Shown here: positions 25,493-30,506 of the stretch, piece after piece | How the letters are laid out: the number at the start of each line of letters is the position of its first letter | Position numbering within the stretch: the stretch's first letter is position 1 | Assembly (NCBI GenBank): GCA_021650895.1 | Contig: CP091278.1 | Coordinates: forward strand, 2,075,659 to 2,139,658 | Source of the DNA: Candidatus Jettenia sp. | GTDB lineage: Bacteria; Planctomycetota; Brocadiia; Brocadiales; Brocadiaceae | Direction of reading: 5' to 3' | Length of the DNA stretch: 64,000 bases | Position numbers and translations under genes: made by a program | The notes under the pieces: generated by a model | What the model was told of the DNA's origin: nothing | Database searches by the model: none | Seen by the model: only the letters and a program-made list of their open reading frames with translations

Positions 25493-26038
25493 TTATGGCG
25501 CTAAATTGTCAATTGTATCGAGGGAGTTTTTCTGTTCAGATTTGGAATGTTCTATTAACTGAAGAGAGTTGGCTAAAATGGCATTTTCAACACTTGCTGC
25601 AATATAGCTAGCTAATATGGTTAAAAAGAGATTTTCATATTTATTATGTTCAAAGATATCAAACTTCTCAGGCACGGTACTAAATACAGCGCATAAGCCA
25701 ATAAGCTTCCTGTTTTGAATAAAGGGTGTATTCATAAAAGAGGCATATCGTACATCTAAAACTGGATGGGCAAGGATATTCTTTAGCCTTGTAGATGACG
25801 GGAGCTTTGTATCCCTGACCTTAGAGATAGGAATTCCCAGAGAACAAACCGGAGTGAGGTTTTTCTTCGTATCATGTAACATGAGTACAGATGCATCTGC
25901 CTCTGTAAATACCTTAAAATGTTTAGTTGCTGCCCGTAAAACCGCCTTGTAATCCAAATCCTTGGAAGATAGTAAAAAGACATCCGATAGGGTCTTAAGG
26001 CGTTGATATAACTTTTTTTCATATGAAATCGATGACAT
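25493..26038 (-). CDS. GAF-domain protein
   Basis: This 181-residue cytoplasmic protein consists of one GAF domain (about 20-155): LLSSKDLDYKAVLRAATKHF, DASVLMLHDTKKNLTPVCSLG, and a conserved closing strand KLIGLCAVFSTVP, followed by a helix. It has no kinase, cyclase or DNA-binding partner domain, so it may be a stand-alone small-ligand or redox sensor. It lies alone on the minus strand, divergent from the aroF leader with a 574-bp gap. Function is otherwise unknown. Confidence 0.7.
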   Translation of the reverse strand: MSSISYEKKLYQRLKTLSDVFLLSSKDLDYKAVLRAATKHFKVFTEADASVLMLHDTKKNLTPVCSLGIPISKVRDTKLPSSTRLKNILAHPVLDVRYASFMNTPFIQNRKLIGLCAVFSTVPEKFDIFEHNKYENLFLTILASYIAASVENAILANSLQLIEHSKSEQKNSLDTIDNLAP

Positions 26039-26305: not shown

Positions 26306-26334
26306 TTGACAATAAATATCCTGTTAGGTAAACT
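26306..26334 (+). promoter_or_regulatory. sigma-70-type promoter of the DAHP synthase leader
   Basis: A consensus -35 TTGACA (26306-26311), a 17-nt spacer and a -10 TAAACT (26329-26334) place the start near 26341, about 270 nt before the DAHP synthase start codon. Confidence 0.65.
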
Positions 26335-26381
26335 CTAACACTTAAATTTCATAACAAACAGAGTATTACTACCGGAAACTA

Positions 26382-26498
26382 ATGCTTGTTAAGATTATTA
26401 ATTACCTTGTAAAGGGTATATCGAGAAATGGTTTTTATGCTTATGAAATCTCTTATAAAGTCTTATTTTATTTTCTGTTATTTTCGATATTATCATAA
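26382..26498 (+). CDS. candidate leader peptide rich in Phe and Tyr (38 aa)
   Basis: ATG at 26382 with GGA about 8 nt upstream; TAA at 26496-26498. The peptide has four Phe and five Tyr among 38 residues, most in one stretch (FYAYEISYKVLFYFLLF). It lies between the promoter at 26306-26334 and the terminator hairpin at 26550-26582, in front of the first gene of aromatic biosynthesis. The layout matches classical amino-acid attenuators. AT-rich DNA favours TTT and TAT codons by chance, so this needs comparative support. Confidence 0.45.
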   Translation: MLVKIINYLVKGISRNGFYAYEISYKVLFYFLLFSILS

Positions 26499-26549
26499 AA
26501 GAGGGCGATCTTAGGATTCGATATTAAAATAATGGAAGTTAAACATATT

Positions 26550-26582
26550 GCCCTAAAACAGTTAGTTTTAGGGCTTTTTTTT
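26550..26582 (+). terminator. intrinsic terminator (candidate attenuator) before DAHP synthase
   Basis: A perfect 10-bp stem GCCCTAAAAC (26550-26559)/GTTTTAGGGC (26565-26574) with loop AGTTA is followed by eight T residues. It lies 30 nt before the start codon at 26613 and downstream of the only promoter seen, so it would stop the gene's own transcript unless countered. AGGGC at 26502-26506 could pair with GCCCT of the stem as part of an antiterminator. Confidence 0.75.
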
Positions 26583-26612
26583 GCCCACAAAATTTGGTGG
26601 AGGTGTAGCTAA

Positions 26613-27629
26613 ATGATTATTGTAATGAAGGCTGAATCTACAAAAAAGGATATCGATCACGTTCTCGATAGTGTAGAAAAGGCCGGCTTAAAAGGGGTCC
26701 TCTTACAAGGAACAAATCGGAATGTAATTGCGATTATTGGGGATGAACGGGTTGTACCGAAAGATTTTTGGGATGTTTTGCCAGGTGTGGAAAAATCCGT
26801 TCCGATTCTTGCACCCTATAAATTAGCCAGTAAAGAGGGAAAAGATTTTAAGACAATCATCCATTTTAATAATGGTAAAAAAATAGGGGGCGATCACATT
26901 GCTGTTATTGCAGGACCGTGCGCTATAGAAAGTAAAGAGCAAATTGTTGAAATCGCCAAAAGGGTAAGAGATGCAGGTGCAACCGCATTACGGGGAGGCG
27001 CATTTAAGCCACGAAGTAATCCCTATACCTTCCAGGGCCTCATGGAAGAAGGTCTCGTACACCTGGCCCGTGCCCGCGAAGCATCAGGTCTGCCCATCGT
27101 TACCGAGGTGCTTACTCCTGAACATGTAAAATTAGTGAGTAAATACAGTGATATATTACAAATCGGAACCCGTAATATGCAAAACTTCCTGCTTTTGCGG
27201 GCAGTAGGTGAGTCGGGAAAACCAGTAATTTTAAAGCGAGGAATGTCCGCTACGATTGAAGAATTCCTTTTAGCAGCAGAGTATATCCTGGCACAGAATA
27301 ATCCGAATGTAATTCTTTGTGAACGGGGAATCCGAACATTTGAGACACACACCAGATTTACCTTATCGTTAAGCATTGTTCCACAACTTAAGGAAATGAC
27401 ACATCTCCCTATCATTGTAGACCCAAGTCATGGAACAGGAAAGAGAAGTCTTATTAATCCAATGTCAAAAGGTTCTATCGCTGTGGGTGCTGATGGTTTA
27501 TTAATCGAAACTCATCCTGAACCTGAAAAGTCGTTCGTGGATGGTCCACAAACAATCACCCTCGAATCCTTTGATGAGCTGATGCAAGAGTTGAAACCTG
27601 TAGCAGAAGCCGTTGGAAGAAAAATATAA
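26613..27629 (+). CDS. aroF: 3-deoxy-7-phosphoheptulonate (DAHP) synthase, type I-beta with N-terminal regulatory domain
   Basis: This 338-residue enzyme commits phosphoenolpyruvate and erythrose-4-phosphate to the shikimate pathway. Residues 1-70 form the ferredoxin-like regulatory domain known from Thermotoga-type enzymes (feedback by Phe/Tyr). The barrel carries AGPCAIES, RGGAFKPRSNPYTFQG, LKRGMSATIEEFL and the metal-site segment IIVDPSHGTGKR. GGTGGAGG precedes the ATG. Its leader contains a candidate attenuator with a Phe/Tyr-rich peptide, which fits control by the end products. It heads a unit with the genes at 27633 and 28187. Confidence 0.93.
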   Translation: MIIVMKAESTKKDIDHVLDSVEKAGLKGVLLQGTNRNVIAIIGDERVVPKDFWDVLPGVEKSVPILAPYKLASKEGKDFKTIIHFNNGKKIGGDHIAVIAGPCAIESKEQIVEIAKRVRDAGATALRGGAFKPRSNPYTFQGLMEEGLVHLARAREASGLPIVTEVLTPEHVKLVSKYSDILQIGTRNMQNFLLLRAVGESGKPVILKRGMSATIEEFLLAAEYILAQNNPNVILCERGIRTFETHTRFTLSLSIVPQLKEMTHLPIIVDPSHGTGKRSLINPMSKGSIAVGADGLLIETHPEPEKSFVDGPQTITLESFDELMQELKPVAEAVGRKI

Positions 27630-27632
27630 TCA

Positions 27633-28142
27633 GTGAGAAGAAAAGATAAAGAAATAACGGATAGGATTGAGATCGAAGAGGTCCTTTCAACTGCTACTGT
27701 GGGAAGATTAGGGACATGCGCCAATGGGATTCCCTATATTACACCAATGAATTTCACCTATGACAAAGAGACCTCAAAGATTTTTCTCCATTGCGCAAAT
27801 GAAGGAAGAAAGTTAGATAACATACGGGTTAATCAAAACGTTTGTTTTGAAGTAGAAGAGGTTAAAAATGTAATTATAAAGCAGCCTACCTGTGGTTCTT
27901 CTGTTGCTTATAGATCTGTCGTTCTATTTGGCAGTATAAAAATACTTACCGATATACATGCCAAGAACAATGCCCTTCAGAAGCTTGCCGATAAGTACGC
28001 ACCACAAAATCCCAAAGCTCCTTTTACTGATGCAATGCTGAGTAGGACGAATGTGCTTGAGATAGAAGTTAAAGAAATGATTGGGAAAAGAAGTCCTGTT
28101 AAACCGATGGTACCTGCGACTACAGATCCGTCAAAAAAATAG
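27633..28142 (+). CDS. flavin-binding split-barrel protein (PNPOx/NimA-like)
   Basis: This 169-residue protein starts with GTG 3 nt after the DAHP synthase stop. It has a split beta-barrel of the pyridoxamine-phosphate-oxidase-like superfamily: TATVGRLGTCANGIPYITPM, IFLHCANEGRKLDNI and YRSVVLFGSIKIL. The closest memory match is the NimA/5-nitroimidazole reductase branch, which binds FMN (or haem in some). The substrate is unknown. Tight spacing implies co-expression with aroF, though no biosynthetic link is known. Confidence 0.75.
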   Translation: MRRKDKEITDRIEIEEVLSTATVGRLGTCANGIPYITPMNFTYDKETSKIFLHCANEGRKLDNIRVNQNVCFEVEEVKNVIIKQPTCGSSVAYRSVVLFGSIKILTDIHAKNNALQKLADKYAPQNPKAPFTDAMLSRTNVLEIEVKEMIGKRSPVKPMVPATTDPSKK

Positions 28143-28186
28143 AGTAGCAAACCAACACAAAAATTAGAAGAAAGGATGATGTATTT

Positions 28187-29374
28187 ATGGAGATTACGGC
28201 ATCAAAGAGGTTGCAGTCCATTGGTGCGTATGCCTTCGCAGAAGTTGATAAAGAAGTTGAAAAGTTAAAAACGATGGGTATAACCCCCATTGATTTTGGA
28301 GTTGGAGACCCTACGGTACCAACGCCTGAGATTGTACGTAAGGCGGCACAAAAAGGAATATCACTACGTAAATCATCCGGCTATCCTAGCTATATTGGCG
28401 CACTTGAATTCCGGCAAGCTATTGCCCAGTGGATTCAAAAAAGATTTGGTGTGCAGATGGATCCGGCCACAGAAATCTCATCAACCATTGGTTCAAAAGA
28501 AGCTGTATTTAATTTTCCTGAGGGAATTGTCAACCCGGGCGACTATGTGATTATACCCTCTCCTGGCTATCCACCCTATACGCGGGGTACTTTGTTTGCC
28601 GAAGGTATTCCCTATTATGTACCACTTCTTGCTGAAAATAAGTTTCTCATAGACTTGAAGTCCATTCCGGAAGAAATCTGCAGGAAGGCAAGGATTCTCT
28701 GGATTAATTATCCGAACAGTCCCAGTGGGGCTGTAGCTCCTTTGTCGTATTTAAGAGAAGTTGTAGAATTTGGTAAAAAATATAACATCATTATTGCCTC
28801 AGATGAGGCCTATAGCGAGATTTATTTTCAAGAGGCTCCTCATAGTATCCTGGAGGTTACCAGGGAAGGTGTTATCGTATTTAATTCCTTCTCTAAGAGG
28901 AGCGCCATGACTTGCTATCGGATTGGCTGGGTTGCCGGTGATAAGCGGATTATCGATATATTTAAAAAGGTAAAAACCAATATTGATTCTGGTACGGCCA
29001 CATTTATTCAGGATGGAGCTATTGCCGCCCTCAGTGATGAGACCCACGTGGAAAAGATGAGAGCGGAATATAAAATCAAAAGAGACTTGCTGGTTGATGC
29101 ATTTCACTCTATCAATTTCCCAAGTTGTACCCCGGAGGCTACCATTTATTTGTGGCAAAAGGTACCTCAAGGCATGAGTTCTGTAGACTTTGCCAGGAAA
29201 CTGCTTTCGCCTGATATTGCTATTGTAACGACTCCGGGTGCATGGATTAGTGATAAGACAGAAAATGGATTAAATCCCGGTGAGGAATATGTACGTTTTG
29301 CCCTGGTACCAAGCATTAAAAATACCAGGGAGGCAGCACGGCGAATTAGAAAATTATTACCAAAGGTCTTATAA
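28187..29374 (+). CDS. class I/II aminotransferase, LL-diaminopimelate aminotransferase-like
   Basis: This 395-residue PLP enzyme has the fold-type I pattern: IDFGVGDPTVPTPE near the N terminus, SSGYPSYIGALEFRQAIA, WINYPNSPSGAVAP, ASDEAYSEIYF and the PLP-binding Lys in FNSFSKRSAMTCYRIGW. The substrate-contacting Arg lies in EEYVRFALVPS. The pattern fits DapL-type enzymes, which convert tetrahydrodipicolinate directly to LL-DAP in lysine/peptidoglycan synthesis, as in other Planctomycetes. An aromatic or aspartate aminotransferase is an alternative, given the aroF neighbour. GGATGATG precedes the ATG. Confidence 0.8.
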   Translation: MEITASKRLQSIGAYAFAEVDKEVEKLKTMGITPIDFGVGDPTVPTPEIVRKAAQKGISLRKSSGYPSYIGALEFRQAIAQWIQKRFGVQMDPATEISSTIGSKEAVFNFPEGIVNPGDYVIIPSPGYPPYTRGTLFAEGIPYYVPLLAENKFLIDLKSIPEEICRKARILWINYPNSPSGAVAPLSYLREVVEFGKKYNIIIASDEAYSEIYFQEAPHSILEVTREGVIVFNSFSKRSAMTCYRIGWVAGDKRIIDIFKKVKTNIDSGTATFIQDGAIAALSDETHVEKMRAEYKIKRDLLVDAFHSINFPSCTPEATIYLWQKVPQGMSSVDFARKLLSPDIAIVTTPGAWISDKTENGLNPGEEYVRFALVPSIKNTREAARRIRKLLPKVL

Positions 29375-29382
29375 AGAAAAAA

Positions 29383-29511
29383 TTCACCGCAGAGGCAAAA
29401 ATATTCAATAGTATTGTAGGGACAGGTTTTAAACCTGTCCCTGCTCTTAGAAAATATCTGTTATTCATAATTTTCTTATTTCTCTGCGTCCTCTGTGCCC
29501 TCTGCGGTGAA
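29383..29511. repeat. nested inverted-repeat element
   Basis: Outer arms TTCACCGCAGAGG (29383-29395) and CCTCTGCGGTGAA (29499-29511) enclose an inner palindrome with half-site GACAGGTTT (29416-29444). It fills the gap between the aminotransferase and trpS. Confidence 0.7.
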
Positions 29512-29528
29512 AATAATAGGATAGTCTT

Positions 29529-30506
29529 ATGAAAAAGCGTTTATTTAGTGGAATTCAGCCTAGTGGTGATGTGCATATTGGCAACTACTTAGGAGCCATT
29601 AAGAATTGGGTACGACTGATTGATCAGTATGAGTGTATCTTTTGCATTGTAGACTATCATGCAGTTACTATTGAATACAATCCGGGAGATATGCAAAAGA
29701 GAATCCTGAATGCAGCAGCAGTCAATATTGCATCTGGCTTGGACCCTGACCGATGCATTGTTTTCGTTCAATCATACGTGCCAGAACATACCGAGCTTGC
29801 ATGGATATTAAACACGATAACTCCTATGGGCCATCTGGAGCGTATGACCCAATTTAAAGATAAATCAAAACAGAACGCCGAAAATATTAATGCAGGGTTG
29901 TTTACCTATCCTATCTTGCAAGCTGCTGATATTTTAATTTATAAGAGTGAGGCTGTTCCTGTCGGTGAGGATCAGGTTCAGCATATTGAGCTTGCACGGG
30001 AAATTGTGAGAAAATTCAATGCACGGTATGGAGAAACGTTTCCGGAACCGAAAGAAATCCTTTCTGAAGCCTCACGGATTATGGGGCTTGATGGTAAGGC
30101 AAAGATGAGTAAGAGTCTCGGGAATTACATATCGCTGGTAGAAACGCCTGAATCAATAGGGAAAAAACTCTCGACGGCTGTAACCGATGAGAACAGAAAA
30201 AGGCGCACTGACGCTGGTAATCCTGATATTTGTAATTTATTTACCCTGCACAAGCATTTTTCCAAAAAAGAACAGATTGAGACTATCAATGGAGCGTGTC
30301 GTACTGCTGAGATTGGCTGTGTTGAATGTAAAAAGATTTTGTCGAATAATATGGCTGAAGCACTGACTCCTATTCGTCTGAAATACGAGCAGTTGGTCAA
30401 CGACCAGGATTACCTGTTAAGTATCTTACACACGGGTGCCAGAAGATGTAAGGAAATGGCAGGAGATACTATGAGCGAAGTAAAAAGGAAGATGGGTCTG
30501 ATTTAA
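29529..30506 (+). CDS. trpS: tryptophanyl-tRNA synthetase
   Basis: This 325-residue class I synthetase has the HIGH motif as HIGN in SGIQPSGDVHIGNYLGAIKN and KMSKS in GKAKMSKSLGNYI. The Trp-pocket segment (YPILQAADILIYKSEAVPVG) is present. It charges tRNA-Trp with tryptophan. Length is the usual one. The argS start codon follows directly after its stop (ends 30506, argS begins 30507), so the two synthetases are co-translated. Confidence 0.96.
   Translation: MKKRLFSGIQPSGDVHIGNYLGAIKNWVRLIDQYECIFCIVDYHAVTIEYNPGDMQKRILNAAAVNIASGLDPDRCIVFVQSYVPEHTELAWILNTITPMGHLERMTQFKDKSKQNAENINAGLFTYPILQAADILIYKSEAVPVGEDQVQHIELAREIVRKFNARYGETFPEPKEILSEASRIMGLDGKAKMSKSLGNYISLVETPESIGKKLSTAVTDENRKRRTDAGNPDICNLFTLHKHFSKKEQIETINGACRTAEIGCVECKKILSNNMAEALTPIRLKYEQLVNDQDYLLSILHTGARRCKEMAGDTMSEVKRKMGLI

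Follow-up and report, generated by a model that had tools for sequence, protein, structure and literature searches.

A putative Tyr/Phe-responsive transcription attenuator preceding the DAHP synthase gene aroF in anammox planctomycetes

Introduction

The attenuator of the trp operon (RF00513) works through 1:2, 2:3 and 3:4 helices, and its leader stop codon is close to region 2. The enterobacterial pheA and pheST leaders present the order leader peptide, protector, antiterminator and terminator, and are dominated by Phe codons.

In Corynebacterium glutamicum, a leader peptide with Phe-Tyr-Phe precedes aroF (PMC4046766); this leader is named aroR, and Phe limitation raises read-through there (PMC11802643, citing Neshat et al. 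2014). A wide survey of terminators published in 2010 stated that leader peptides had until then been demonstrated in Proteobacteria and Actinobacteria alone, and extended the list to Firmicutes (PMC2965389); its main text contains no words starting with “Planctomycet-” or “Rhodopirellula”. For Planctomycetes, anammox bacteria or Kuenenia, no report on attenuators or on leader peptides was found in the literature searched, in which subscription journals were mostly not covered; a preliminary description of the locus analysed here had called this type of control little described in Planctomycetes.

Results

The window (the whole 64,000-nucleotide stretch of Candidatus Jettenia sp. DNA analysed) belongs to a complete genome of 3.82 Mb, whose relatives are Brocadiaceae, anammox planctomycetes, with Candidatus Brocadia and Candidatus Loosdrechtia among the named matches. 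The ATG of aroF (Table 1) is preceded by the Shine-Dalgarno sequence GGAGGTG, and profile scores of 473 bits (NF006421) and 378 bits (TIGR01361) upheld its previous assignment as a DAHP synthase. Next on this strand come genes for a PPOX-like protein and a PLP aminotransferase, then trpS and a gene which we take, by eye, to be argS-like. The four genes from aroF to trpS occupy positions 26613-30506; because trpS follows aroF on this strand, the attenuator may also affect the tryptophanyl-tRNA synthetase. The gene 5' of the leader (25493-26038, minus strand) is divergent, so that the gap of about 575 nt upstream of aroF belongs to two diverging promoters, and the terminator serves the leader transcript only.

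Table 1. Features of the aroF leader region in the window (positions counted from its first nucleotide).
Feature	Position	Strand	Basis
Sigma70-type promoter, TTGACA-17-TAAACT	26306..26334	+	Sequence; TTGACA kept in 26/29 related leaders
Conserved leader ORF, stop TAG 26512-26514	26428..26514	+	Frame test (n=29), codon-position diversity, in-frame indels
Regulatory codon run Y-F-I-F-C-Y-F-R-Y-Y (candidate sensor)	26464..26493	+	Sequence; Tyr and Phe invariance
Protector (1:2) hairpin, sensor codons with post-stop region, -16.3 kcal/mol	26467..26543	+	Folding, conservation
Antiterminator 5' arm AGGGCGAU, window's genus	26502..26509	+	Folding
Antiterminator 5' arm, form in most relatives (UUAGGG; here UUAGGA), includes leader stop	26511..26516	+	Comparison
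Antiterminator 3' arm AUUGCCCU, common to terminator 5' arm	26547..26554	+	Comparison, folding
Intrinsic terminator, 10-bp stem, 5-nt loop, eight U, -15.3 kcal/mol	26550..26582	+	Sequence, conservation
aroF, DAHP synthase	26613..27629	+	Profile and domain matches, ferredoxin-like N-terminal domain (PF18152 + PF00793)

The comparison was based on 29 non-identical loci upstream of aroF, 27 from the Brocadiaceae family and two from sister-family genomes. The promoter and the strong terminator of the preliminary description were both recovered. A promoter match of this quality is by itself at chance level in AT-rich DNA (19 found vs. 17.6 expected); among the related leaders, TTGACA was found at a variable distance from aroF, usually together with a -10-like TANNNT. 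The terminator, GCCCTAAAAC-AGTTA-GTTTTAGGGC followed by eight T, is located between the leader ORF and the structural gene, 30 nt before the aroF ATG. A CCCT...AGGG-T(5+) terminator was present in all 29 leaders, starting 48-66 nt ahead of aroF, and 96.9% of the alignment cells were paired (vs. 67.9% at most in slid registers).

The conserved leader ORF is short and rich in codons for end products of the pathway. Three ATG codons are candidate starts in the window: 26428, 26437 and 26443 (28, 25 and 23 amino acids respectively); the peptide read from the last of these, with the other two upstream, is MKSLIKSYFIFCYFRYYHKRGRS, and the start codon and Shine-Dalgarno sequence are weak. Nearly all relatives have a short frame whose peptide ends like FYYFRYYYKRGGS and whose stop falls within the motif UUAGGG or directly ahead of it, as in MKHYAVFYYFRYYKRGGS (L005), MNILSNNPKHCRFYWVIYYFRYYYKRGGS (L012) and MYFKYCYYQIRRS (L029), the last being one of the shortest. 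Summed over the 29 leaders, which are not independent because the species are related, the conserved frame contained 192 F/Y/W codons, vs. 88 (sd 7.5, maximum 115) in 2000 composition-preserving shuffles; in the 20 codons before the anchor, the mean number of aromatic residues was 6.6 for this frame, against 2.7 and 2.3 for the other two. Diversity at the three codon positions was 0.14, 0.17 and 0.31, highest at the third, and gaps within the frame were of 3 or 6 nt, those after the stop not being so restricted. One Tyr codon and one Phe codon were invariant in 22 of 22 aligned leaders. Altered leaders were also found: L013 is without the FYYFR motif, L034 has an early stop right after the run, and L020 has lost its stop, reading continuing for 10 codons. 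Leaders of the Brocadia-like genus g11 (e.g. L012, L015, L019 and L021) carry an extra Trp codon (e.g. FYW[VI]FYYFRYYY), and since this joins the Tyr and Phe codons, their run holds all three aromatic amino acids.

The antiterminator of the family consists of GGUU-UUAGGGU paired with GCCCUAAAACC and of an apical stem, AUAUU/AAUAU. Its 5' arm lies just 3' of the regulatory codons and overlaps the leader stop codon, and the helix competes with the terminator, the two being mutually exclusive. Pairing was seen in 84.4% of the cells (52.1% at most in slid registers). Double changes occurred in 4 of the 5 pairs of the apical stem, which are absent from the terminator; covariation was modest, because the helices share bases with conserved sequence. 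A third helix, the protector hairpin, includes the regulatory codons and joins those for Tyr-Phe-Arg to the very arm that the antiterminator uses, which sits in its upper part (ACUUUAG with UUAGGGU, 94.8% paired vs. 69.5% at most in slid registers, 22 leaders). This hairpin was strong in the window's genus; in most others it comprised 7 bp, several of them weak.

The window's genus has UUAGGA in place of UUAGGG, and its antiterminator is shifted upstream to AGGGCGAU/AUUGCCCU; in the protector, the A that replaces G still has a partner, owing to a synonymous change of a Tyr codon (TAC to TAT). A weak AGGGC/GCCCT pairing had been suggested before as part of an antiterminator: the helix was found, and it is not weak (8 bp, -11.8 kcal/mol, in the region that a stalled ribosome would expose). 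AGGGCGAU/AUUGCCCU was also tried as a register for the whole family and rejected, because only 74% was paired, no better than in shuffles, which makes it a lineage-specific variant. UUAGGG is broken as well in genus g4 (L013, L035), where AGGGU/AGGGC is used instead; in all five leaders of genera g1 and g4 with a broken motif, arms of the AGGGC/AGGGU type pair with the same CCC. In the sister-family outgroup G034, the terminator arm is changed to CCCUAUCCGCC and the upstream arm to GGCGG..UUAGGG, both structures being retained. The antiterminator register has changed during evolution, with terminator and protector kept.

A ribosome usually covers about 15 nt beyond the first base of the P site. 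In the window, the aromatic codons end with 26491-26493, and the arm of the antiterminator starts at 26502; with the usual footprint, a ribosome holding the Tyr codon 26488-26490, or an earlier aromatic codon, in its A site leaves the arm free, and the arm is covered once the ribosome has reached the stop codon (26512). When the exposed RNA was folded from starts 26477-26503, the antiterminator formed; starts 26507-26512 left only weak structure, and a start at 26525 left none. For a leader free from 26470 onward, the best fold was protector plus terminator (-29.6 kcal/mol).

A covariance model built from the 29 leaders gave exactly one match, just before aroF, in 29 of the 33 genomes of the family. 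The other four have no aroF start in the assembly (residues 226-338 only in G003, no orthologue in G006, G008 and G027), so that every Brocadiaceae genome with an aroF start (29/29) carries the element, and relatives lacking leader or terminator, which would have spoken against the preliminary description, were not encountered among them. Two sister-family genomes (G034, G048) also had a single match, just before aroF. The model gave no match in other members of the class; most relatives of the order outside the family (f2, f5 and most of f4) are without the element, and G046 and G055 showed terminator-like remnants. No second copy was detected in the window genome by DNA pattern or covariance model, and inspection of 450 nt upstream of its pheA and two trpE paralogues revealed no aromatic leader with terminator. 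A long inverted repeat (gcaaggctttagagcttgtgcaaaaagt ... actttttgcacaagctttttagccttgc) was seen 5' of trpE in this genome (L145, about 1150-1400) and may represent a palindromic mobile element.

In other phyla, 74 aroF loci were scanned quickly, and Phe/Tyr-rich ORFs with terminators were again seen before aroF. Five Desulfobacterota-like loci (L048, L070, L072, L077 and L080) have such an ORF, then a terminator and then aroF (e.g. MHTGLYCFYYFYFYPGEGTASGMLSFR in L072 and MNGGLFYYCFYYYPLRGAASGTLGY in L077), and apparently constitute a second, separate group of candidate attenuators. Most of these leaders end alike (YYYP.GEG.ASGML-like), with GCCGTG..CACGGC terminators. The test of pairing between arm and terminator was not significant for them; a pairing of GAGYGCCCUG with CAGGUAYGCUC, which adjoins the Tyr run, can be drawn by eye. 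In the Poribacteria loci L042 and L046, the Tyr codons are followed after a short distance by arms (CCCAATGATGGGCT and GTGATGGGCA) with complementarity to the terminator, and duplexes of equal strength arose in 0 and 3 of 200 shuffles respectively. Neither group shares obvious sequence with the anammox leaders beyond the Phe/Tyr run; both are probably separate or strongly diverged inventions, to be taken as leads rather than as tests of homology. In a planctomycete locus (L040), aroF is preceded by a candidate leader with Trp and Phe (..GWAAAGWFWFDFGSR..) and by a strong terminator.

Discussion

The leader frame, its codons, the three helices and the position before the gene are conserved. This anatomy points with high probability to a classical ribosome-mediated transcription attenuator, which would tie the expression of aroF to charged tRNA-Tyr and tRNA-Phe; ribosome stalling, termination and the response to Tyr and Phe are what we infer from it. 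The comparison of relatives, proposed previously, revealed conserved Phe/Tyr codons and conserved alternative pairings; the earlier conclusion of a Phe/Tyr attenuator of DAHP synthase is now strongly backed by comparative evidence, with the leader peptide named at that time being in the wrong frame.

Transcription would begin after the promoter and a ribosome would translate the short leader ORF up to its TAG. With ample Tyr- and Phe-tRNA, the ribosome at the stop codon would cover the antiterminator arm, GCCCUAAAAC/GUUUUAGGGC would pair and transcription would end before aroF. A ribosome stalled within the Y-F-R-Y-Y run would block the 1:2 hairpin; the downstream arm (AGGGCGAU here, GGUUCUUAGGG in relatives) would then pair with AUUGCCCU/GCCCUAAAACC, the terminator would be excluded and aroF transcribed. 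If the leader were not translated, the 1:2 hairpin and the terminator would be favoured, so that the default state is predicted to be off.

Control by a ligand or protein (riboswitch, T-box-like element or RNA-binding protein), with the aromatic-rich frame incidental, would be compatible with the weak start site of the leader, and alternative terminator and antiterminator structures are no proof of ribosome control on their own. This explanation is nevertheless very unlikely: the Rfam search of the window at gathering and relaxed E-value thresholds returned no family, T-box and riboswitches included (Phe_leader, RF01859, scored 15.9 bits, below its gathering score of 55), conservation is codon-like and centred on the Tyr/Phe codons shortly 5' of the arm, and the region 5' of the leader ORF is free to vary among relatives in both sequence and length (promoter distance 192-317 nt).

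The sensor might also be the 38-residue frame of the preliminary description (26382-26498), the end of which overlaps the conserved ORF in another frame. It does exist as an ORF, with an ATG and nine aromatic residues, and the two nearest genomes have it open too, but its conservation is confined to the window's genus. Stops close the same frame in nearly all other relatives (its last 15 codons are open in just 5 of 29 leaders), it is aromatic-poor (2.3 aromatic codons per 20 on average), and its own stop (26496-26498) lies ahead of the antiterminator arm; it was thus rejected as the conserved sensor, and we regard its involvement as extremely unlikely. That the strong terminator is merely constitutive, or belongs to a small RNA, and fixes the level of aroF by constant read-through is hardly credible, since this would explain neither the conservation of mutually exclusive antiterminator and protector helices nor that of the Phe/Tyr frame.

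For anammox bacteria, a conserved Tyr/Phe attenuator at the entry to aromatic synthesis would be a concrete regulatory input. Since ribosomes must closely trail RNA polymerase for it to work, it would also offer a direct test of transcription-translation coupling in planctomycetes. The chances seem about even that Phe/Tyr attenuation of DAHP synthase is old and widespread (Brocadiales, Desulfobacterota, Poribacteria and Corynebacterium), implying such coupling in the compartmented anammox cells.

The mechanism is a classical one and control of aroF has precedent; it is the occurrence in planctomycetes for which no earlier report was found in the literature searched. The helix logic resembles that of the trp attenuator, which has Trp codons and precedes the trp operon, and whose Rfam model has no match here. 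The order of elements is that of the pheA and pheST leaders, which control different genes and are Phe-dominated. The closest functional precedent is aroR-aroF of the actinobacterium C. glutamicum, likewise a short Phe/Tyr leader peptide before a DAHP synthase gene; compared with aroR, the anammox run is longer (FYYFRYYY) and Tyr-dominated, and in most anammox relatives the leader stop lies inside the antiterminator arm.
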